DNA from: Clostridia bacterium
Lineage (GTDB): Bacteria > Bacillota > Clostridia > Oscillospirales > QAKW01
Assembly: GCA_017937065.1 (NCBI GenBank)
Contig: JAGBEI010000026.1
Coordinates: 62,001 to 126,000 of the forward strand
Reading direction: 5' to 3'
DNA: 64,000 bases
The notes under the pieces were generated by a model. It was given only the letters and a program-made list of their open reading frames with translations, searched no databases and had not been told where the DNA came from. Both the position numbers and the translations under genes were made by a program. Shown here in pieces: positions 1,396 to 62,696 of the stretch. Position 1 is the first letter of the stretch; each line of letters starts with the position of its first letter.

Positions 1396-2081
1396 ACGGT
1401 AATTCAATAAAAAAAATCATTTCATATTTGCTTCTTTTACTCTGCGTACCGACTCTGATAATCATCGGAAACAGTGTATTTGCAAATAAAAAATACTCTT
1501 TTATCAGCATCGGCATCGCCGTTATTGCCTGCGCCGCGTTTTTTCTGTCATTTGAATACGGCAGGCACAGCAGCATAAAGCTGGTGCTTACCGCAGCAAT
1601 GACAGCACTTTCAGTATCGGGAAGGTTTCTATTTGCCATGCTTCCGGGATTTAAGCCTGTAACGGCAATAATAATAATTACAGCATTATATTTCGGCGCT
1701 CAGGCAGGGTTTATGACAGGAGCACTCACCGCCCTAATTTCCAACATTTATTTCGGTCAGGGACCGTGGACGCCTTTTCAAATGCTGGCATGGGGCATTG
1801 TCGGTCTGCTCGGAGGAATATTATCCGGATATCTTAAAAAGAATAAGTGGCTTCTTTTAATTTACTCGGCACTTGCCGGCATTCTTTTCTCAATGATTAT
1901 GGATATATGGACTGTTCTGTGGATGGATAACAGCTTTAACTTTACGCGTTATGCGGCGGCATTACTCGGATCAGCCAAATCAACACTTACATATGCCGTT
2001 TCAAATGTTATATTTATATCTGTTTTGCTGCTCCCAACAGGCAGAGCATTAGAACGAATAAAAGAAAAATACGACATTTAA
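1365..2081 (+). CDS. ECF transporter S component (substrate-binding membrane protein)
   Basis: A 238-residue integral membrane protein with about six hydrophobic segments, taken as the substrate-capturing S component of the ECF importer encoded just upstream. The stretch around residues 95-150 (LPGFKPVTAIIII, GAQAGFMTGAL, GQGPWTPFQMLAWG) matches what I know of clostridial ECF S components linked to fused ATPases. The TTG start at 1365 has a strong ribosome site, GAGGAGG at 1348-1354, and lies within the ATPase gene, giving a 31-base overlap. The ligand is not identifiable by eye; a B-vitamin or corrinoid is the usual choice for such modules, but that is inference. Confidence 0.82.
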   Translation: MQRNPRQTNINGNSIKKIISYLLLLLCVPTLIIIGNSVFANKKYSFISIGIAVIACAAFFLSFEYGRHSSIKLVLTAAMTALSVSGRFLFAMLPGFKPVTAIIIITALYFGAQAGFMTGALTALISNIYFGQGPWTPFQMLAWGIVGLLGGILSGYLKKNKWLLLIYSALAGILFSMIMDIWTVLWMDNSFNFTRYAAALLGSAKSTLTYAVSNVIFISVLLLPTGRALERIKEKYDI

Positions 2082-14223: not shown

Positions 14224-16467
14224 TTATTTAGAAAAGAGAGCAACAAACATCGCCGGCAGTGCCCATAACAGCTGGTACACCAAAATCTGAACCGGAAAAT
14301 AGGAGGTCATTCCGGAGAAAAAAGCCAGAAAAGTGACCAACGCAAACGCAATAACGGAAGAAATAGCTTTAATGATTTTGCCCGCACCGAAAGCAAACTT
14401 GACAGACTTACAGCCGTGCAGGGCAAACGCGAGACCGCATATGCCGGTTCTTGACGCAATGAGCGAGGGTGCTTTTTCCATAAGTCTGAATTTCTGAACA
14501 CATCTCTGCGCGCTGCCGAAGTTGAGTATTTTGAAAAGCAGCTTATCGTCCGTCCGATAATGATAAAACAGGGTATCGGTATTTACGTTTTCATCATGTT
14601 CGGCAATAACCACACAAACCTGATCTCTCTCATATGTTTCAAACGCTCTTTTAACATTCTGCGGCAATGAATAGCTGAGCAGAAAAACGCCGGCAAGTCT
14701 GCCATCATATGCCGCAAAGAGAACATGCTTTGATTTCTGCTGATAAATGATTTCAAAATCCCTGTCGTCAATCTCAATTCCGAAATGCTCCATCAACTGC
14801 TTGTTTCCGGCAAGAAATACTTTCGAATCAATAAGGGATGAATATCCCATTTTATCATGATAATAAATATCGTCAATCCTCGGCAGAGTCTTAATATCCT
14901 CACTGAGCATATCACTGAACAAGGGCTTCAGCGGTCCGCCCGCAACACGGTACAGAGAATTAAGGTACAAAATCACCTTATCAGCCGTGGAATCGCCGTA
15001 AAACCGTATTCCGTTAAGGGAAACAGAAAAAATATCCGAATCATCAATAACAACGGTCTGAACATCGTCAAGCTCCATACAGCTGTTAATCCCTACAATG
15101 CTGCCGCCGTTTCTGCGTGTTTTTTTACTGTTAGTATATACCGAAACGGCAAAATTCATGCCCTGAAGCAAAGGGGAAACGGCACAAAGAGCACCTGCCG
15201 CAAATTTAAGACAGGTAGTAAAACTGCCAATAACGGCATAGTTTACAACCGCCGCCAAAACAGACCCGAAAAGCAGAAAAATCCCCGGCGCGGCATATCT
15301 GCTGCATAAGTCAAAATCCAGAAAGCTCCTGCGGACAAAACCGGAAACAAACTCACTTCTGGCAGCATATGCTATATCGTTACTGCAGCCCGTATCGACA
15401 ATAATATCATTTATAAGCTCATCATTCTGCCTGTTATCCATAACCATTTTAGTACCATCGGCAGAGACAACCGAAAAGTTCTTATAGATATTGTCGGCAA
15501 TTATCCTTTTTGAATTTATGCTGAAAAACAGCATAATTACATACAGCATATCAAATACGATACATTCATTTGCCGGAGTTTTTAAAATAATATAACAAAT
15601 ATCCAGTACGGACGAAAAAATAAATATCAAGGCAAGAAACGACTCGGAAGAACATTTGAGCTTAAATATTCCTATAAAGCCGTTCCAGACAGAAGCCGCA
15701 TTAACAGCCGTTGCCGCGACCGACAACGCGAGCATTATCGGAATATAAACGGAAATATCATATTCAATATCAATGCCGGGAACGGTAAAATCCGTACAAA
15801 GCGCGGCAAAAAGTACACCCGACAGACATGCTGTTATAAAGGTCAGAATGGTTTTCAGCGACGCTGACGAGCGTATGCGCTTAAGCTCGGCGGAAACATC
15901 CTCCTTTTCCTCCTCCTTTTCATAATCGTCAATTTCCTCGGTCGGTTCAAAGACAGGTATTTCCTCTCCCTCAACATCCTCCTCTTCTCCGTCTCCCTTG
16001 GCAAATGAAGCGATCGGGCTTTTAATCTTTTCATGTGCCTGCTCTTTAACGGAATTAAATGTAGCGGTATCAAAATATCTTACGTTTTCAATAGGCGACA
16101 AAATTTCCTTTTCGCCATTACCATCAGAATTTTCCTTAGAAATTTTGTTTTCTGCCGTATCATATGTACTGTCATTATTTCCGGCAATCTCAGATTCAAA
16201 GCCTTGTGATTTATCAGTCCGAGTATCTTTTTCATGCACCTTTTCCGAATGAATAGCTTCAAAAACGCCCGTAATGGACAGTCCCTGAGGCTTGACGACC
16301 TCGACATCATCTATATCGGATTTTGAAAGTTCGGGCACATCGGGCACGTTTTCACCGCCGCCGAAATCCCTGAGTATAGTATCAAGGTCAAAATCGTCTG
16401 TGCCTGTATTTTCATATCCGGCATTTTCAAATTTCTTGAATTCCTCTAAATTCAGCTTATCACTCAT
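14224..16467 (-). CDS. Degenerate P-type ATPase homologue with an acidic disordered N-terminus
   Basis: A 747-residue membrane protein. The first about 205 residues are highly acidic and low in complexity (EEEDVEGEEIPVFEPTEEID), followed by several membrane segments. The region AGALCAVSPLLQGMNFAVSV, then a soluble part beginning VVIDDSDIFS, aligns with the metal-pump core just before DKTGT. Here the motif is D475-D476-S477-D478-I479: the aspartate remains, but Lys, Gly and Thr are lost. No GDGxND hinge motif or TGES is visible, and two membrane segments close the chain. It should not transport ions by the usual cycle. ATG at 16467 follows GGGGA. It follows rlmB closely; a related but distinct degenerate pump lies upstream of rlmB. 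Confidence 0.7.
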   Translation of the reverse strand: MSDKLNLEEFKKFENAGYENTGTDDFDLDTILRDFGGGENVPDVPELSKSDIDDVEVVKPQGLSITGVFEAIHSEKVHEKDTRTDKSQGFESEIAGNNDSTYDTAENKISKENSDGNGEKEILSPIENVRYFDTATFNSVKEQAHEKIKSPIASFAKGDGEEEDVEGEEIPVFEPTEEIDDYEKEEEKEDVSAELKRIRSSASLKTILTFITACLSGVLFAALCTDFTVPGIDIEYDISVYIPIMLALSVAATAVNAASVWNGFIGIFKLKCSSESFLALIFIFSSVLDICYIILKTPANECIVFDMLYVIMLFFSINSKRIIADNIYKNFSVVSADGTKMVMDNRQNDELINDIIVDTGCSNDIAYAARSEFVSGFVRRSFLDFDLCSRYAAPGIFLLFGSVLAAVVNYAVIGSFTTCLKFAAGALCAVSPLLQGMNFAVSVYTNSKKTRRNGGSIVGINSCMELDDVQTVVIDDSDIFSVSLNGIRFYGDSTADKVILYLNSLYRVAGGPLKPLFSDMLSEDIKTLPRIDDIYYHDKMGYSSLIDSKVFLAGNKQLMEHFGIEIDDRDFEIIYQQKSKHVLFAAYDGRLAGVFLLSYSLPQNVKRAFETYERDQVCVVIAEHDENVNTDTLFYHYRTDDKLLFKILNFGSAQRCVQKFRLMEKAPSLIASRTGICGLAFALHGCKSVKFAFGAGKIIKAISSVIAFALVTFLAFFSGMTSYFPVQILVYQLLWALPAMFVALFSK

Positions 16468-16483
16468 ACCCAATCCCCAAAAT

Positions 16484-17236
16484 TCATCTGTTTTTAGCTA
16501 TTTCCTGCATGACAACGGCGGCTGCAACTGACGCATTTAAACATGAAACCCTGCCATGCATAGGAATATTAACAACAAAATCACATTTCTTTTTTAGCAG
16601 CGCCGACACACCCCTGCCCTCGCTGCCTACAACAAGTGCCAAAGCACAGTCATAATCTTCACTGTAATAAGGTTTTTCCCCATCCATATCACAGCAAAAA
16701 ATCCATACTCCGCGTTTTTGCATCTCATCAACGGCTGACGCAAGGTTTGAAACACGGACTACCGGCAAATAATTCAACGCCCCGCCCGCCGCCTTGGCAA
16801 CAGACGCCGTAAGTCCCGCGGCACGCCTTTTGGAAATGACAACGCCATGTGCACCGAAGCACTCGGCAGTGCGTATAATAGCTCCAAGATTATGAGGATC
16901 TGCAATTTCATCGGCAATTATTATAAACGGGCGTTCATTGCGGCTTTCCGCAAGACTGAAAATATCCTCAAGCTGCGCATAATCAGCCACTGCAGCCTGT
17001 GCCGCAATACCCTGATGGTTATCCTCAGGAAACTTCGAATTAAATTTACTTGACGGCAATTTAATTATAGGTATTCGCTTTTTCGCAGCCAGCGTAATTA
17101 TTTTCCCGGCGCTGCCTCCGGCAGTTTCGGATACAAACAGCTTGTCCACCTGCCGTTCCGAACGCAGTGCTTCCAGAACATTATTTCTTCCGAAAATATA
17201 GTCCTGCCCCATTCTGTCTTCCGCCATCGACGTCAT
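16484..17236 (-). CDS. rlmB: 23S rRNA (guanosine-2'-O-)-methyltransferase RlmB type
   Basis: A 250-residue SpoU/TrmH (SPOUT) methyltransferase, predicted to methylate the ribose of G2251 of 23S rRNA or a close site. The three knot motifs are present: DEIADPHNLGAIIRTAE, VVGSEGRGV and IPMHGRVSCLNASVA. An N-terminal L30e-like substrate-binding domain (YIFGRNNVLEAL) identifies RlmB rather than TrmH. ATG at 17236 is chosen because AAGGAG lies six bases upstream; the earlier in-frame ATG at 17251 would precede that site. Confidence 0.93.
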   Translation of the reverse strand: MTSMAEDRMGQDYIFGRNNVLEALRSERQVDKLFVSETAGGSAGKIITLAAKKRIPIIKLPSSKFNSKFPEDNHQGIAAQAAVADYAQLEDIFSLAESRNERPFIIIADEIADPHNLGAIIRTAECFGAHGVVISKRRAAGLTASVAKAAGGALNYLPVVRVSNLASAVDEMQKRGVWIFCCDMDGEKPYYSEDYDCALALVVGSEGRGVSALLKKKCDFVVNIPMHGRVSCLNASVAAAVVMQEIAKNR

Positions 17237-17265
17237 ATTGTGCTCCTTCATGATTTATACATTAT

Positions 17266-17293
17266 ATTATATCATATTTTGCTGTAATATCAA
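17266..17293 (-). promoter_or_regulatory. Promoter of rlmB
   Basis: On the minus strand TTGATA (17293-17288), a 16-base spacer and TATAAT (17271-17266), 30 bases before the rlmB start. It gives rlmB and the following degenerate pump gene their own transcript. Confidence 0.75.
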
Positions 17294-17305
17294 TTACTTT
17301 TTACA

Positions 17306-17342
17306 CTTTCAAAAAGCAGGTCAGAGCTTTGCCGACCTGCTT
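17306..17342 (-). terminator. Terminator overlapping the 3' end of the P2-type pump homologue
   Basis: On the minus strand AAGCAGGTC and GACCTGCTT pair across an 11-base loop and are followed by TTTTTGAAAG. The left arm is part of the last codons and stop of the upstream gene, so the transcript ends without a 3' spacer. Confidence 0.85.
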
Positions 17343-19777
17343 ATCAAACAAGATATATATTTAATTAAAATTCCGACCGCTATTGCCGCAAGAGCGTGCA
17401 CCGCGGAAAAGCCGCTTACAAAAAACATTGTTGACGCAGGGGTCATAAACAGTACCGCAGTAATTAAGGCGGGGACAAACGACAAAGCAACCAGCGCTGA
17501 ATTCCGCAGGTTCTTAAAGTCAAGGTCTAAAAATGTCGGAGGAACAGCGGACATAAACGCAACTGCTGCAAATCCGCCGGCTGTTTGCGGCAAAGCGGTA
17601 AACTTCAAAATAACAGTCAGTAAAACAAACATAACGGTACAAACCGCCGAAAAAATCAAATTTTGTTTCTGAAGCGGTTCGACTGCAAACGCAGCCGTAC
17701 GTTCAAGCCCCCGACGTCGGACACAAAAAACAGACAATACGGCACTCAAAGGCACCGAGCCGAAAATAACCAAGCCGAGTATCTGAGGACTGAACAAAAG
17801 CGATTTGTTCATCAGCGAAAACAAAATTCCGCATACAACAAAAACCATCGCAAAAAGTATCTCATTTACAAGTAAATCGCATATCGAAGCAAATACATTC
17901 TTGGCTCCCGTGACCGCCGAATAAACCGAGGCAATGCCGTTGTTTGAAATAACGTCGTTGCTCTTACTGTCGTACATCGGGCAAGAACATGTGTTAAACG
18001 CAACGCTCTTTAACGAATCGGCACTTTTGCCGCCGATATAAACAGGAGTATGTTTGTTATTCACACATATATCAGCCAGCTTTTCGCCTTTGCCGTCAAA
18101 ATCATATATTATATCACAATCTGATATTTCACTGCTGTCTGTTAATGAATTATATGAAACGCATTTTATTTCCGAGTCATTTTTATAAATTTGCTTTGCA
18201 AATGCGTTTGCAAAAACCTCGTTGTCGGGGCAAATGATAACACTGCGAACTCCGCATGATTTAATACCGCGCAGCATACTCAGCCTGTCGGCTGAGATAT
18301 CACGCCTGAGACCTATAAACCCGATAAGCTTAAATCCCGACTTTTCATAAGATAAATCGGCGTTTATGATATCTGTCTGTTTGACTGCAACAGCGATAAT
18401 TTCGGTCGACGTGCCTCTGAGCCTGTCAAGCGCTTTATGATAACGCTCAAGCTCCCCGTCTGCGCACAGCTTGAGAACGGAGGTATAGTTTCCCCTTGCA
18501 ATCAGCACACTGCTGCCGTCATATACAATTCCGCAGACAGCATAGTCGGAATCGGCGTCGGAATAATGAGAAATAACGGGGCACATCGAAGAAACATCTT
18601 TATAGTCAATGCCAACGCCTTTTAGCACCTTGGCAGTAAGTTTTTTTAAAGAATAATAGGGCGATTGTTTTTGGGCATTTTCATTACAAAACGAACAATA
18701 CAAAAATATACTGAAATTACTTTTATTTACCTCGGACAGCTCACGATACTCACCGTTTTCCAGTATAAACCCTGAAATTTCAGAGCCTTTATCATAAAAA
18801 GCACTGTGCTTTATAAGAAAAATATCGGCGCTGTTCAAACTGTCAATTACAGCATGAGACTTTAAAAATACGCCTTTTTTATAAAGCTTTCGCACACATA
18901 TGTTAAACGCCGCTTCGGCAAATACCGAAACAAAGTCAGCCGTAAATACGGCGGCAAGCAAAAATGCGGATGAAAAAAACGCTAAATAATCCGAAGCGAT
19001 TAAAGCGCTTATTAAACCGAATACAAGCGATACAGCAAGCAAAAGCAAAGATAGTATTTTTGAAAAATCGCACACCCTTACAGCCGGACGGAAACGGCGG
19101 TCTGCACCGTCTGCCCGCCTTTGCACGTACACACGATACGATATATCGGTTACTACCGCCTTTGCACTGCCCTTAACAATATAGCTTGAACAAAACAGCA
19201 TGTTATACTGCCTGGAAACATCCGCGTTTTCTTCATTAATCACTCCGGCATGTTTCAGTACCGCATTTTCGTGAATTATATCGGATTCATCGGCGACAAG
19301 TCCGTCAGATTCGATTATTCTTGCATCAAACGGAATATAATCGCCCTTTTTTAACAGTACTACATCTCCGTATGTTATATTTCTGTATTCAAGCTCAGCT
19401 TCCCTGCCTTCGCGCAGTACTGTCAGCTTGCCGTAATCTAAAGGAGATACATGACTGTTTTTATGCTTTATCCACTTAAATAAAAAATGTAAGGCACAAG
19501 AGCAAACTATCGGAAATACCGCAGCAGTAATGCCATAAAAAACATAATTTATATCCCTTTTAAAAATTGCGGTCAGAAAATACACTGCCGCTGCAAGCAA
19601 AATAAAAAGCAGTGAGCGTAAAAGACGGAATTTTGTATGACACACTGAATTAGACATACGAAAATTAGGACCGTCCTTTTTCAGACGCTCCTCTGCCTGA
19701 CTTTGAGATAAGCCGGACTTCAAATCCGTTGCCAGCTCCTGCTGCAATTCAAATGTGTTCAACTTATAAAATTTCAA
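17321..19777 (-). CDS. Degenerate P2-type (Ca2+/Na+-like) P-type ATPase homologue
   Basis: An 818-residue membrane protein with the full P2 layout: cation-ATPase N-terminal domain (SGLSQSQAEERLKKDGPNF), two membrane helices, actuator domain (GDVVLLKKGDYIPFDARII), two helices, nucleotide/phosphorylation part and a C-terminal helix bundle. All three reaction motifs are altered. DESxLTGES reads DESDIIHEN; DKTGT aligns with K323-H324-S325-A326-F327, so the acceptor aspartate is a lysine; TGDGVND reads IGGKSAD. It can hardly form a phosphoenzyme. TTG start at 19777 overlaps the gtrA stop by 4 bases, with AGAGGA about 11 bases upstream. The open frame over 800 codons argues for a maintained, non-pump role. 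Confidence 0.8.
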   Translation of the reverse strand: MKFYKLNTFELQQELATDLKSGLSQSQAEERLKKDGPNFRMSNSVCHTKFRLLRSLLFILLAAAVYFLTAIFKRDINYVFYGITAAVFPIVCSCALHFLFKWIKHKNSHVSPLDYGKLTVLREGREAELEYRNITYGDVVLLKKGDYIPFDARIIESDGLVADESDIIHENAVLKHAGVINEENADVSRQYNMLFCSSYIVKGSAKAVVTDISYRVYVQRRADGADRRFRPAVRVCDFSKILSLLLLAVSLVFGLISALIASDYLAFFSSAFLLAAVFTADFVSVFAEAAFNICVRKLYKKGVFLKSHAVIDSLNSADIFLIKHSAFYDKGSEISGFILENGEYRELSEVNKSNFSIFLYCSFCNENAQKQSPYYSLKKLTAKVLKGVGIDYKDVSSMCPVISHYSDADSDYAVCGIVYDGSSVLIARGNYTSVLKLCADGELERYHKALDRLRGTSTEIIAVAVKQTDIINADLSYEKSGFKLIGFIGLRRDISADRLSMLRGIKSCGVRSVIICPDNEVFANAFAKQIYKNDSEIKCVSYNSLTDSSEISDCDIIYDFDGKGEKLADICVNNKHTPVYIGGKSADSLKSVAFNTCSCPMYDSKSNDVISNNGIASVYSAVTGAKNVFASICDLLVNEILFAMVFVVCGILFSLMNKSLLFSPQILGLVIFGSVPLSAVLSVFCVRRRGLERTAAFAVEPLQKQNLIFSAVCTVMFVLLTVILKFTALPQTAGGFAAVAFMSAVPPTFLDLDFKNLRNSALVALSFVPALITAVLFMTPASTMFFVSGFSAVHALAAIAVGILIKYISCLISRSAKL

Positions 19778-20223
19778 GAATTTTCATTTCCTCTTTTATT
19801 TTTATCCGATGATAAAAAGAACCTGTAATTTTTATATACAAAAAATCTATTAAGCAAATAATTCAGAAAACCTGTCGTAAGGGTCGCCGGAATTTTTCCT
19901 ACATATTCATCAAAAATCATGCAGTAAAAAGAAATAATTACAGGACTTAAAAGTATACAAATAAGACACACAACAAGATATTTCAGCGCTTCTTTCCCCA
20001 AAGACGATTTTTCACGCCTGAATACAAGCTCCCTGTTTACAATAAAGCTGCAGCACAAACCTATGGACATGGATATCGGCTGTATAAGACGAAAGTTTAT
20101 ATCCGCAAAATTGAGAAGCAGATAATAAACTCCGCAATCCACGGCAGCGCTGACAATACCCGTACAGGTAAAGCGCAGCAGTCTTTTTATTTCATTTATT
20201 ATTTTAAATTTATTTATTTCCAT
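19774..20223 (-). CDS. GtrA-like four-helix membrane protein
   Basis: A 149-residue protein with four hydrophobic segments and the GtrA family features: LLRFTCTGIVSAAVDCGVYY near the start, FIVNRELVFR after helix 2, and FLNYLLNRFFVYKNY at the end. Members are thought to move or flip polyprenyl-linked sugars for cell-surface glycosylation. ATG at 20223 fits the family start; a longer TTG start at 20250 exists, and neither has a clear ribosome site. It shares a transcript with the degenerate P2-type ATPase, with overlapping stop and start. Confidence 0.88.
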   Translation of the reverse strand: MEINKFKIINEIKRLLRFTCTGIVSAAVDCGVYYLLLNFADINFRLIQPISMSIGLCCSFIVNRELVFRREKSSLGKEALKYLVVCLICILLSPVIISFYCMIFDEYVGKIPATLTTGFLNYLLNRFFVYKNYRFFLSSDKNKRGNENS

Positions 20224-20262
20224 ATTATTCAAAATTATCGCAGAATTCAAAAATATACTTGG

Positions 20263-44660: not shown

Positions 44661-46052
44661 TTGGAAGTTAATTTCGGACCGGCAATACTTATAGTATTTA
44701 TAATGCTGCTTCTGATTATTTTCTGTACGTTTTTCGCATCGCGTCTTGCACAGCTGAAAAACAGAAGCAGAGCATGGGGACTGCTTGGTTTTTTCTTTAC
44801 AATCCCGGGACTTATTATTGTTTGTTTTCTTCGTTCAAAGCGCAAGGACAATATGCAGACAAATCCGATTGCATACGCCGTTTCCAAGCTGCCGTCACCG
44901 TCTCGCAAAACGATAGGACTGCTTATCGGGCTTGCTGCTGCCGCAGTGCTCACAATAATAGCCTACGACAATATTCCTGTCATGATTCAAAACTATAAGT
45001 ATTCCAAGCAGGTGCTGAATACTGCGGACACCGACTATGAGCAGCCGCGGATAATAGAAGCTAAGCTTACCGACGTGTTTACGGGCATCGACAGCACCTA
45101 CGCATTAACGGACAGCAAAGATATATACTGCTGGGGAAGACAGCTTACGCCCCCTATCGACGATAAGCTGCGAGGTGTAATTTATAAAGACGCACTAAAA
45201 GCGGCATCAACACAAGACAAACTGTTTATTCTTACGAATAAGAAAGAGCTGCTCGTATATGAAAAGCCGGATACGCTTTCCGAAAATACAGAAGATGAAA
45301 AACAGAGCGCCGAATTCAAACTGATTGATGAAAATGTCACCGACTTTTCTGTTTCGGAAACAACGGTAGGATATATTAAAAGCAACGGTAAACTGTACAT
45401 GTACGGCGACGGAAGCTACGGTCAGCTCGGAACATATGACAGAGAATCAAAGAGCAAACCCGAAGCAGTGCTCGGAAATGTCAAAAAGGTTGTGTGTGAG
45501 GCTTCATTTACCCTCGCGCTTCAGGAGTCCGGAACAGCAGTTGCATTCGGCAACAGCGCGCACGGACAGTTTGGCAAAAAGGAAACGGCGGTTACATCAC
45601 CGTTTGAGCTTGCCGAAAATATTTCGGATATTGCGGCGGGAGACGATTTCATCTTACTGCTTAAAGAAAACGGAGCAGTTCTGGCATGCGGCAGCAACAG
45701 CCACGGTCAGCTCGGAATATCTTCCGAACAGCCGATTACGGAGTTTACGGAAGTATTGAGCGGCATCTCCTCTGTTTATGCAGCAAAAGGCTCCTCATTT
45801 GCGCTTAAGGAAAACGGAGAGCTTTACGCATGGGGACAGAATAATGCAGGTCAGCTGGGAAACGGCAAAACCGATAATGTCTTAACGCCTGAGCTTGTAG
45901 CATCCGGCGTTGCCTCGGTATCAACATCTGGACTGCATACGGTAATCCTGACAAATGACGGAAAAATTAACGCCTGCGGCTACGATAGCGTAAAGCAGCT
46001 CGGAAAAGGCGGTCCGCGAGACAATTTTGAAGCGGTCGTTTCAGTAAAATAA
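44661..46052 (+). CDS. Membrane-anchored RCC1-repeat beta-propeller protein 1
   Basis: A 463-residue protein of unknown role. Two membrane segments (about residues 5-25 and 38-55) and a third at about 84-100 lead to an extracellular RCC1-like propeller. Repeat signatures are seen as GDGSYGQLG, GNSAHGQFG, GSNSHGQLG, GQNNAGQLGNG and GYDSVKQLG, about 50 residues apart. TTG start with AAGGAG upstream. A paralogue follows after 11 bases, which suggests a shared complex or an expanded pair. RCC1 propellers in bacteria are mostly uncharacterised surface domains. Confidence 0.82.
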   Translation: MEVNFGPAILIVFIMLLLIIFCTFFASRLAQLKNRSRAWGLLGFFFTIPGLIIVCFLRSKRKDNMQTNPIAYAVSKLPSPSRKTIGLLIGLAAAAVLTIIAYDNIPVMIQNYKYSKQVLNTADTDYEQPRIIEAKLTDVFTGIDSTYALTDSKDIYCWGRQLTPPIDDKLRGVIYKDALKAASTQDKLFILTNKKELLVYEKPDTLSENTEDEKQSAEFKLIDENVTDFSVSETTVGYIKSNGKLYMYGDGSYGQLGTYDRESKSKPEAVLGNVKKVVCEASFTLALQESGTAVAFGNSAHGQFGKKETAVTSPFELAENISDIAAGDDFILLLKENGAVLACGSNSHGQLGISSEQPITEFTEVLSGISSVYAAKGSSFALKENGELYAWGQNNAGQLGNGKTDNVLTPELVASGVASVSTSGLHTVILTNDGKINACGYDSVKQLGKGGPRDNFEAVVSVK

Positions 46053-46063
46053 GGAGCGTTAAT

Positions 46064-47356
46064 GTGTTAAAATTATCAATTACTTTATTAGTAACAGCAA
46101 TTATTTTTTTAATATTTTATTTAGCGTCAGGTCGCAGTAAAAACAAAAAAAGAAAAAAGTCCTCGGTCTTTCACAGATTTTCCGGTGCTTTTACCGTAAT
46201 CTGCATAATAGGCAGCGCGGTTTTCGGAGTGATATACTGTAAGAATGAAAATATAAAGCTTTTTGACAGACTCAAGACATACGAGCTGCCGGCTGAATAC
46301 GAGAAAATTCTTGAAAAAGACGGAGAGGACGCTGCTTACCCTTTTCTCCCCGTCGGTATATTCACCCAAAACGACGACATTTATTTTACAAACTCCAAAA
46401 ACGACGCTTTTATATTTAAAACCGACAAGGACGGTTCACATTCTTTCACCACCAGCTCGAATAATACCGTTTTTATCGGCGGCGATAAAACACTTAAAGC
46501 AACCGTTACCGACAGCGGAGACTTAATTCTTGACGGATACTTCCTATACTCAAAGTATGATGAGGAATACCTCGGATATTCTAATAAAACAATAGCAAAA
46601 AATGTTAAGTATTGCAGCTTTACGGATAATTCACTGTTCTACATCACAAATAGCGGAGATTTGTACTCCATGGGCTTTAATGAGTACGGACAGCTCAGTG
46701 ATAATACAACTAAAAACAAGCCGTCTCCCGTGTTTGTAATGAGCGGGGTCGAGCGTGCCGATATATCCGATACTCACGCAATGATTATTGATAAATACGG
46801 CACTCTTTTTGCCGCAGGAGACAATTCATATTCGCAGCTGGGCAACAAAAATGCAATATCGTCGACAGAGCTTACAAAGGTAATGCAGGGCGTCAGAGAT
46901 GTCGCAGTGGGCAATTATTTTTCACTTGTTCTTACCGTAAACGGTGAACTGTATTCAGCGGGCACAAACGAAAAGGGTCAGCTGGGCAACAACGGCGGCG
47001 AGTTTCGCGCCGAGCTTGTGCCGGTAATGACAGGCGTTGAAAAAATAAGCGTAAACGGCAATACCTGCGCGGCACTTACCTATGGCGGAGAGCTGTACGT
47101 ATGGGGTGATAATTCAAACTGCAAGGCGGGTGCCGAAGGGTCTGAAATTATTGCGGCTCCTAAAAAAGTGCAGGATAATATTTATGATTTTGCTCTGTCG
47201 AAAAACGGCGTTACCGTTTTAAATAAAGACCGTACAGTACTTACAAGCGGGACAGACGGAAAATTTACCGAGCTTATAATTTTCAACTCAAAAATTCCGG
47301 AACAATATAAAGAAAAAAATCCCGTGCAAACGCCTGATCTTCCGGAAAAGGTATAA
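46064..47356 (+). CDS. Membrane-anchored RCC1-repeat beta-propeller protein 2
   Basis: A 430-residue paralogue of the preceding gene. Two N-terminal membrane segments (about residues 3-20 and 37-57, with a basic RSKNKKRKKS loop between) are followed by an RCC1-like propeller with repeats GFNEYGQLS, GDNSYSQLGN, GTNEKGQLGN and GDNSNCKAG. A Pro-rich C-terminus ends the chain. GTG start at 46064 with AAGGAG seven bases upstream. It has the same domain order as its neighbour but little direct identity outside the repeats. Confidence 0.82.
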   Translation: MLKLSITLLVTAIIFLIFYLASGRSKNKKRKKSSVFHRFSGAFTVICIIGSAVFGVIYCKNENIKLFDRLKTYELPAEYEKILEKDGEDAAYPFLPVGIFTQNDDIYFTNSKNDAFIFKTDKDGSHSFTTSSNNTVFIGGDKTLKATVTDSGDLILDGYFLYSKYDEEYLGYSNKTIAKNVKYCSFTDNSLFYITNSGDLYSMGFNEYGQLSDNTTKNKPSPVFVMSGVERADISDTHAMIIDKYGTLFAAGDNSYSQLGNKNAISSTELTKVMQGVRDVAVGNYFSLVLTVNGELYSAGTNEKGQLGNNGGEFRAELVPVMTGVEKISVNGNTCAALTYGGELYVWGDNSNCKAGAEGSEIIAAPKKVQDNIYDFALSKNGVTVLNKDRTVLTSGTDGKFTELIIFNSKIPEQYKEKNPVQTPDLPEKV

Positions 47357-59867: not shown

Positions 59868-60812
59868 TCAGTCGGCAGAATCATTGCCTTCCGAGGGTGT
59901 TGATTCATCAGATGAATTTTCGCTATTGCTTATATTATTATCCACTTCAACTGTACCATCATCACTCTCCGTATTTTCAGGGGTTTCATTGTTCGGCTGA
60001 TTGGTATTGTCAAGCACGGACTCCGACGTCTGTGACGGCTGGATTTTATCTATCGACTGATTGGGCGACGGCGTCTGATCAGATTGTAAATCACCTGTCA
60101 CATCAGTAGTTGTTGTATCTGAGGGAGAGCCGGTGTCAGGCGTCTCTCCGTTGTGAACCGTCGTAGCATCAGATGCAGCTTCATTTGACGCGGGCGACTG
60201 AAGCGTCGGTATATCAGAAGAAATTTCATTTTTAACATCATCCGACTGTTGTAAAAGCAAAGAATTCTGTTGTATATTTTCCACACTCGCACCGATAGTA
60301 TCACCGTTTTTAATTCTCGTATCGGGGTCTACAGTGCATGTTCCCCAGCTTCCCTTAAATGAATACAGTCCGCCAGTTTGCGAGGTGTAAGTATAAACAA
60401 GATGATTTCCGGTGGCAATCACATCGGTATACTGCGGCTCAAGCTCATCACACTGAATCACGCAATAGCCCTTTGTTGCAGTACCGTACGCCGTTATCGT
60501 AATTTCATATTTATTATCCTTATATAAAAGAAATCTTCCGTCCGATTCAGGATTTACGTCTTCTTTCAGGGGCTCCTCTCCCGATAATTTAGTGATTTTT
60601 TGCACAGTAACATTCACGCCGTAATCGGCAGATTTTATATCCTGAAGCCGTGTCTGTGCATTTGCACTGAACCATGCAAGGCTCATACCCGCCATACACA
60701 CAACACAAATCACTATGCCTATAACAGACGGCATGAGCAGACGCACAATATTACGGTCCGACAGCTTTTCATGCTCAGGCATATAAAACAATGATTTAAA
60801 AAAACGCTTCAT
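59868..60812 (-). CDS. SipW-cognate signal protein with disordered S/T/E/N/P tail
   Basis: A 314-residue exported protein. A 28-residue polar head and a hydrophobic segment end in MSLAWFSANAQT, the AWF-x-A pattern of SipW-cognate signal peptides (TasA/camelysin group). A small beta-rich domain (about residues 55-170) is followed by a tail of about 140 residues made almost wholly of Ser, Thr, Asp, Glu, Asn, Pro and Gln, rather like a spacer or mineral- or wall-facing stalk. No sorting motif at the end. ATG at 60812 is preferred to GTG at 60818 for spacing from GGGAGG. Function unknown; last of the three surface genes. Confidence 0.75.
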   Translation of the reverse strand: MKRFFKSLFYMPEHEKLSDRNIVRLLMPSVIGIVICVVCMAGMSLAWFSANAQTRLQDIKSADYGVNVTVQKITKLSGEEPLKEDVNPESDGRFLLYKDNKYEITITAYGTATKGYCVIQCDELEPQYTDVIATGNHLVYTYTSQTGGLYSFKGSWGTCTVDPDTRIKNGDTIGASVENIQQNSLLLQQSDDVKNEISSDIPTLQSPASNEAASDATTVHNGETPDTGSPSDTTTTDVTGDLQSDQTPSPNQSIDKIQPSQTSESVLDNTNQPNNETPENTESDDGTVEVDNNISNSENSSDESTPSEGNDSAD

Positions 60813-60888
60813 TATCACACGTCCTCCCGATAAAATATATCAGATTATTACTATAATACTTTTTACTAAACCCGTTTATTCCCATTTC

Positions 60889-60967
60889 GGGAATCAAAGG
60901 GTACAAGTTAAAGCTAATACTTATACCCTTTGATTCCTGCCCGTCTTTAAGTAAAAGACGGGCGGGA
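60889..60967 (-). repeat. Paired-hairpin intergenic element, copy A
   Basis: On the minus strand, just after the stop of the beta-helix gene: hairpin I (60963-60939, GCCCGTCTTT with a TACT-type loop and AAAGACGGGC), then a long hairpin II (60937-60890) with outer arms GGAATCAAAGGGTA and TACCCTTTGATTCC. The second hairpin is shared in sequence with copy B at 62924. No T-run after hairpin II, so it is more than a simple terminator. Confidence 0.7.
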
Positions 60968-60983
60968 ACCGCAAAGTGCAAAA

Positions 60984-62696
60984 TTACTTTTTAAACATTA
61001 CGTAAGCGTCTGCGCAGCTTATCGTTCTGGCAGCGGATGCACCGCAGATATAAATATCACCGTTTTCATCGGCAAAAGTATTGCCGCCGGCATCTATACC
61101 GTCAATATTGACATAGTCAATATCAATTATGGAGTTTTTCATATTTTCAGATGAACCGAACTTATTGTTTCTTATTGTAATCTTCACATCAGTGTTTGAA
61201 TTATCTGCCGCCTGAATATGAATAAAGCGTTCACCGCTGACATTGTTTGAAAACTCACAGTTTGTGATAACAATTTCAGCACCTGCTTTAGGCGTTATCT
61301 GAATGGAATCCCACTGCGTATCTGCAAATGTGCATCCGTCAAATACAACCTTTCCGGTAAGACCCGAAGCGTATACATTAGACGCATTGTTTTTTGCATT
61401 TACAGGCTCGGCAAAGTTTACATTCTTAAATGTAACCTTATTATCCGCGCCGACATATACGGGGTTTTCAGATATGGTTTTGCCGTTTCCGTCTATGGTT
61501 ATATTCTTATTTACCGAAAGTGTGCTTGTAAGCACGATATCGTCAGTCAAAAGAATTGTATCGCCGTCATTAGCACCTGCAACTGCATTCTTAAACTCTT
61601 CAGTATCAGATGCGGTAGCCTTAACTACTGTATACCAGTCACCGTTTTTAACAACGGTATAACCGTCAGCAACAAAGTTTGCGGTCGGATTTTCAGTTTC
61701 ACTGTTAGAGGGGTCATACTTATAGAAGGAGCCGCCTCTTACTATGATTTTAGCCTCAGAGTTATCCTTTATATTAAGTGTCCACTTAGGAGTTACAGAC
61801 TTAAATGTACCGCCGTTAATTTCAATTACTCCGGTACCGGATGCATAAATCAGATCGTACTGATCATCATCTCCGCTGATATCCTGGGTAAAATAGCCGT
61901 CATTGATAATTACAGTACCGTTATCCGCCCACACAGCCATTGCGTATTTTTCCTTGCTTTCAACAGCGGTTACTGTGCCTTTTCCGCTTACAGTAACAAC
62001 CGCATTGTTTACAGCATGAATTGCACCGTCGTTGCCGTCCGCATAGATGGGTGTTTCCTCAAGGTTAACAGAAACCTCTTTGCCGTCTGCAACGATAGGA
62101 TCGCTGTACTGTGCATCTGCATCATAATCGTTTGAATTGCTGTCAAACTCATGTACCGCCTGTGTTGCAACAACTGAAATGCTGATGCCTGTAAGAGAAA
62201 GATTCATATACTCATTTCCGGCAGTCTGCTTCATAGTACCGCTGATAACAATCTCATCCGATACTGCCTGAGGAGCAAGAAAACCTTCTTTTGAAAGCTC
62301 AACCGTATCGCCGTTTTTATCGGTATAGCTGAAATCAATAGCTTCAAGGAGCTTTGCACTCCCTGCCAGACCATTAACGACAAGCTTATACTTCAGCGCA
62401 AGGCTTCCGTTGTTTTTAACTTTGACAGCCGGAAGCTCATACGTACAGCCGGGTTCCCACAGAACAGCGTCCGTACCCTCTTTTTTAATCCAGTTAAGAG
62501 TCGCATTTTCATCTATCTCGTTGCCGTTTTCATCAACGAGCTGCACATCAAGCTTACCTGATGTGATACTGCTTACGCTTGCAGTTGCCGAATCGGTGAA
62601 CCATGCAAAGGTCGAACCGATAAACATAGCCACACAGCAAAGCAGCGACAGCACGCTTAAAAGCAGTGCTCTTTGTGTATTTGTGCTTTTAGTCAT
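60984..62696 (-). CDS. SipW-cognate signal protein with TasA-like domain and parallel beta-helix
   Basis: A 570-residue exported surface protein. The signal region ends in GSTFAWFTDSATAS (about residues 26-39), the SipW-cognate pattern. Residues 40-180 read like a TasA/camelysin fibre domain (GKLDVQLVDENGNEIDENA). From about 200 the chain becomes a right-handed parallel beta-helix with Asn/Gly/Asp turns (VTVSGKGTVTAV, VIINDGYFTQD, IEINGGTFKSV, ITIRNNKFGSS). No wall-sorting LPxTG. No catalytic residues recognised; such helices may bind polysaccharide or build fibres. ATG at 62696 has GGAGGG ten bases upstream. Confidence 0.82.
   Translation of the reverse strand: MTKSTNTQRALLLSVLSLLCCVAMFIGSTFAWFTDSATASVSSITSGKLDVQLVDENGNEIDENATLNWIKKEGTDAVLWEPGCTYELPAVKVKNNGSLALKYKLVVNGLAGSAKLLEAIDFSYTDKNGDTVELSKEGFLAPQAVSDEIVISGTMKQTAGNEYMNLSLTGISISVVATQAVHEFDSNSNDYDADAQYSDPIVADGKEVSVNLEETPIYADGNDGAIHAVNNAVVTVSGKGTVTAVESKEKYAMAVWADNGTVIINDGYFTQDISGDDDQYDLIYASGTGVIEINGGTFKSVTPKWTLNIKDNSEAKIIVRGGSFYKYDPSNSETENPTANFVADGYTVVKNGDWYTVVKATASDTEEFKNAVAGANDGDTILLTDDIVLTSTLSVNKNITIDGNGKTISENPVYVGADNKVTFKNVNFAEPVNAKNNASNVYASGLTGKVVFDGCTFADTQWDSIQITPKAGAEIVITNCEFSNNVSGERFIHIQAADNSNTDVKITIRNNKFGSSENMKNSIIDIDYVNIDGIDAGGNTFADENGDIYICGASAARTISCADAYVMFKK

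Follow-up and report, generated by a model that had tools for sequence, protein, structure and literature searches.

The window analyzed here, a 64,000-nucleotide stretch of DNA from a Clostridia bacterium (genome G000), carries on its minus strand a run of genes in which two proteins related to cation pumps, designated A and B, stand on either side of an rRNA methyltransferase gene. A GtrA-family membrane protein is encoded first (19774..20250; Pfam PF04138, 2.2e-20), and its stop codon overlaps the TTG start of protein A (17321..19777), an 818-residue, predictedly dead homologue of the P2-type P-type ATPases. There follow an RlmB-type 23S rRNA 2'-O-methyltransferase (16484..17251; Pfam SpoU and synteny) and the 749-residue protein B (14224..16473), a predictedly dead homologue of the P1B-type, CopA-like ATPases that has an acidic N-terminal region and is found order-wide. 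Given the overlap of A's start with the end of gtrA, the two genes probably share a transcript, and A lacks the promoter of its own that a preliminary description of this DNA had given it. The terminator claimed in the same description is real, being a hairpin over the stop codon of A followed by a U run (17296..17350, minus strand; -18.5 kcal/mol, z -3.4). A promoter-like site before rlmB (TTGATA-16-TATAAT with an extended -10; 17266..17293, minus strand) is a consensus match only, and the suggestion is that rlmB and B form a transcription unit separate from gtrA-A. The gtrA gene lies upstream of A in its own genus only; other genes precede A in the second genus that carries it.

P-type ATPases are a class defined by phospho-aspartate chemistry. 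Protein A is related to the P2 pumps of this class by the criterion of sequence and domain similarity along the chain. Pfam recognizes E1-E2_ATPase (2.1e-15) and Cation_ATPase_N (1.6e-7) in A, and Pfam and NCBIfam together place the P2-class part in the first 320 residues, with no HAD or P-domain match from either collection. The alignment of an A-family profile to intact P2 pumps spans 675 columns (E 5.8e-43), so that the 818-codon frame and P2 homology of the preliminary description are borne out by the reading frame, by Pfam and by the profile comparison it had proposed. The nearest solved relative in a profile search of the PDB is the Listeria Ca2+-ATPase LMCA1 (E 1.8e-28). Like the P2A-type Ca2+-ATPases (LMCA1/lmo0841, SPCA and SERCA), A is ordered as an N-terminal region, M1-M2, actuator, M3-M4, P/N region and C-terminal helices; unlike them, it has no TGES, DKTGT, KGA, DPPR, TGD, GDGVND or ion-site residues. 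The two AlphaFold models are poor (pLDDT 55 with pTM 0.35, and pLDDT 42) and of too low a quality to serve as a basis for argument. In the weak model of A with pLDDT 55 the helices run as two, the actuator, two, the P/N region and about six, as in P2 pumps; the best 50 Foldseek matches listed for it are all P2-type or MgtA-type pumps, and the PDB matches listed are P-type pumps throughout.

The motif sites of A were read by alignment against its orthologues and an intact pump of a third genus (G005, described below); all lie on the minus strand. At the A-domain TGES site (19265..19276) residues 168-171 read IHEN, and at the GDGVND site (18017..18034) residues 582-587 read GGKSAD in a segment two residues shorter than in the pump, both as originally noted; in the sister genus the alignment shows the GDGVND segment wholly deleted. 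The phosphorylation site (18797..18814) reads IKHSAF at residues 322-327, with one residue deleted relative to CTDKTGT. Here the earlier placement of K323 on the acceptor aspartate needs correction, for K323 stands opposite the Lys of DKTGT, and what faces the Asp is a gap or I322. The claim that every reaction motif is broken holds, and the loss goes further than had been described: the M4 PEGL ion-binding site (18932..18943) reads TADF at residues 279-282, KGA has become RGN, TGD has become CPD, DPPR is lost, the M5 Asn is absent, and M6 has FGSVP where NVVTD (NxxTD) would be expected. Thus the ion-site signatures of M4, M5 and M6 and the KGA, DPPR and TGD loops are all lost or remnant, and no true pump motif occurs elsewhere in the chain.

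Eight orthologues of A were found, in all four genomes of its own genus and in four of six from the sister genus. The two sister-genus genomes without A are 62-64% complete, and the rlmB-B locus was also not found in them. Identity is 38-53% within the own genus and 18-25% between own and sister genus, the latter range depending on the alignment. The order A - rlmB - B is kept in both genera where the contigs allow a view; in G001 and G009 the A locus is split across contigs. The losses at TGES, DKTGT and GDGVND are common to all eight orthologues, each motif being broken wherever an orthologue covers the site, and the letters that replace them differ: the TGES position reads TCEN, CGKK, FGAT, FSSS or FGKT, and the position of the acceptor Asp is I, L or V in the own genus and F or Y in the sister genus by alignment. 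Across the eight aligned orthologues there is no conserved acidic residue at the phosphorylation position, none of them keeps DKTGT, and neither PEGL in M4 nor NxxTD in M6 is kept in any. Judged by its residues, A is predicted to be without any remaining enzymatic step of the Post-Albers cycle. Error in sequencing, assembly or alignment, or a recent mutation in a single strain, could be imagined as the source of such a protein, since the named relatives are all metagenome-assembled (the named A-bearing records are uncultured Clostridia that, to judge from their isolate names, would come from the gut of goat, roe deer and rabbit ('Lapin') and from other samples). The same losses recur, however, in independent assemblies from different hosts, and with eight orthologues in hand the recent mutant and the assembly artefact were ruled out; the probability left to this explanation is negligible.

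Substitution patterns indicate that the reading frame of A is constrained, although dS is saturated or nearly so and the omega figures are rough. For the pair G001/G003, dN is 0.197 and dS 1.88, giving an omega of 0.105; the values are 0.158 for G000/G003, 0.156 for G004/G008 and 0.263 for G008/G009, and third-position changes predominate. In the same species pairs true pumps have omega values of 0.039-0.070 and B of 0.072-0.099, so that the constraint on A is looser than that on the pumps by a factor of two to four. Slow decay, in which an inactive A does nothing important and drifts towards a pseudogene, has in its favor that A is the fastest-evolving gene of the block (cross-genus identity is at most 25% for A, about 30% for B and 52-55% for RlmB) and that one of the eight copies, in G009 (L041, about 1500-1720, minus strand), has two in-frame stops in predicted helix M1, which are either decay or metagenome error. 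Against decay, the other seven copies are free of stops and frameshifts as far as they were recovered, despite divergence to 25% identity or less, a distance at which a neutral 2.4-kb frame would be lost; three sister-genus copies and two of the own genus are full length, and two are cut at contig ends. Omega is also 0.10-0.16 in three of the pairs, with third-position changes dominant, and we consider decay improbable. A shows two features by which a pseudoenzyme is recognized, loss of catalytic residues (8/8) and a reading frame under purifying selection. The comparison of orthologues and dN/dS proposed in the preliminary description, with motifs lost in all eight and omega of 0.10-0.26, supports its view of A as a maintained non-enzymatic protein, the loss extending over two genera.

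The nearest described parallel of A, by analogy, is human TMEM94/ERMA, which likewise has P-type architecture, no TGES and a replaced GDGVND (GSSANL) (PMC12134183, PMC13322241). TMEM94 differs in being eukaryotic and in keeping the Asp, within DKQGI, and its relation to A was seen at the level of the shared superfamily; since A has no Asp, it is the further degenerated of the two. Cryo-EM work found no ATPase activity in TMEM94/ERMA (PMC12134183), whereas Mg2+ pumping that depends on its Asp has been reported elsewhere (PMC13322241). This second report, of ATP-dependent Mg2+ uptake driven by a protein that has DKQGI and GSSANL but lacks TGES, is what would speak for continued pumping or flipping of a substrate by A through an unorthodox active site. 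That reading is quite unlikely for A, in which I, L, V, F or Y stands where ERMA keeps its required Asp and from which the ion-site residues of M4, M5 and M6 are also gone; the ERMA claim is itself disputed (PMC12134183). Sequences without an intact signature were also met in a survey of 9,634 P-type ATPases, of which 22 lacked DKTGT (PMC3896382). These resemble A in that respect, but they are single point mutants only, whereas A has lost every motif, a loss common to several lineages. Among open-licence papers, no published description of dead bacterial P-type ATPases or of an A-rlmB-B locus was found.

The slot that A occupies is filled differently in a third genus (g3) of the same family. 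In its genome G005 an intact 872-residue P2 pump lies upstream of rlmB-B (L040:6823-9441, plus strand) and keeps TGES, DKTGT and GDGVND, from which it follows that motif loss is lineage-specific within one family; no pump was recognized upstream of rlmB in 19 loci of other families. Trees place A inside the P2 pumps and separate from a second class of pump, type Y (100/100). A clade of A with the G005 pump is compatible with the free tree (dlnL 0.00, p 0.43), and descent from a further class of P2 pumps, type X, is neither favored nor excluded (dlnL 2.69, p 0.10 for that grouping). With so long a branch leading to A, the tree cannot decide descent from the locus pump, for which the shared slot beside rlmB is the better argument: an intact P2 pump in that slot indicates that A probably descended from a real pump there.

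The distribution of true pumps bears on whether A might regulate a genuine P-type pump of its own cell, as the preliminary description had suggested, or act on one as a dominant partner. Such a role would be in keeping with the fold and ancestry that A has in common with the pumps and with the oligomerization of some of them, MgtA being reported as a dimer (PMC10925321). Six relatives (G001, G003, G004, G006, G008 and G009) carry type X, which is the nearest to A of the true P2 pumps, but targeted searches did not find this pump in G000, which is 99.7% complete and in which A persists, and A is therefore independent of the type-X pump. The idea of an obligate regulator of type X is weakened accordingly. 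What G000 does retain is a P-type pump of type Y, in which DKTGT is present, and two P1B pumps of the CPC type; these are the only pumps left to be regulated, and they leave room for the more general form of the proposal, to which we would give little weight.

The preliminary description missed B, a second dead pump two genes downstream of A that is far more widely conserved. It is a single-copy gene directly after rlmB. The B profile is related to true P1B copper pumps (CopA/PRK10671; E 8e-18, 396 columns) and finds CopA in the PDB (1.7e-5), with no match to P2 pumps; no Pfam or NCBIfam model reaches its cut-off on B. The phosphorylation site is a remnant in which VVIDDSDIF replaces VVFDKTGTL (residues 474-482; 15028..15054, minus strand). 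Unlike the copper pumps, none of 33 aligned members of the B family has CPC/SPC/CPH, TGES, DKTGT or GDGxND at the corresponding sites; their P site resembles VVxDxxDLF, two glycines of the N domain never vary, and 94% of the members retain the Asp at the position of TGD. In one family the B protein has a DKTGS at residue 121, which is remote from the P site and was set aside as chance. At E 1e-3, 53 of 59 relatives gave a match to B, the weakest of these matches possibly being true P1B pumps. When genomes were sampled across the class, 12 of 12 from the same order matched at 5.5e-28 or better, while the best match outside the order is 4e-19; on inspection, the eight best of the outside matches proved to be ordinary P1B pumps in which every motif is present. 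In other families rlmB is directly upstream of B in at least 14 of 19 loci, and the genes downstream of B are mutually unrelated (Lon, Met-tRNA synthetase, a GTPase, a nitroreductase and others), which leaves rlmB alone as an informative neighbor. By their sequences, then, A and B are two dead pumps of separate origin flanking rlmB.

The explanation we favor, and hold with reasonable though not full confidence, is that A is a maintained pseudopump, derived from a real P2 pump and serving as a non-catalytic membrane scaffold or sensor. The particular roles named in the preliminary description, a scaffold and a lipid or ion sensor, are conjectural. The ancestor would have been a real, Ca2+-pump-like P2 ATPase, probably located upstream of rlmB; its phosphorylation, dephosphorylation, Mg/nucleotide and ion-binding residues would have been lost before the two genera split, and the protein would thereafter have been kept at full length, with about ten membrane helices, incapable of the phospho-aspartate cycle. 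Selection on both A and B argues that there is probably some undescribed, non-pumping membrane job to be done. As B and rlmB are the only protein-coding neighbors of A that both genera conserve, B is proposed as a possible partner of A, and one membrane assembly containing both would be the most likely setting for A. An extended form of the idea is speculative, and we think it unlikely as a whole: an order of gut Clostridia would have a dedicated dead-pump assembly, in which the rlmB-linked, order-wide B of P1B origin and the P2-derived A of one family together make up a non-transporting sensor or platform tied to a translation and rRNA-modification neighborhood. If the scaffold or sensor reading is true, the pump fold has found uses other than transport beyond the eukaryotes; this significance would rest on two fully dead, independently derived bacterial pump families that stand beside each other, one of which is conserved order-wide. 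The locus would also offer a small bacterial system for the disputed TMEM94/ERMA question, namely whether such a protein can pump.

Other genes of the window may be mentioned briefly. Two adjacent, putative secreted or surface proteins with TasA-like N-termini (...FAWFTDSATASVSSI) are encoded at 59868-62696 (minus strand), which we take to be possibly a locus of the biofilm-fibre type. On the plus strand, a putative alpha-2-macroglobulin relative of 1634 residues (38394-43298) directly follows a sigma-factor-like gene (37821-38384), and two consecutive putative membrane-anchored proteins with RCC1-repeat-like sequence lie at 44661-47356.
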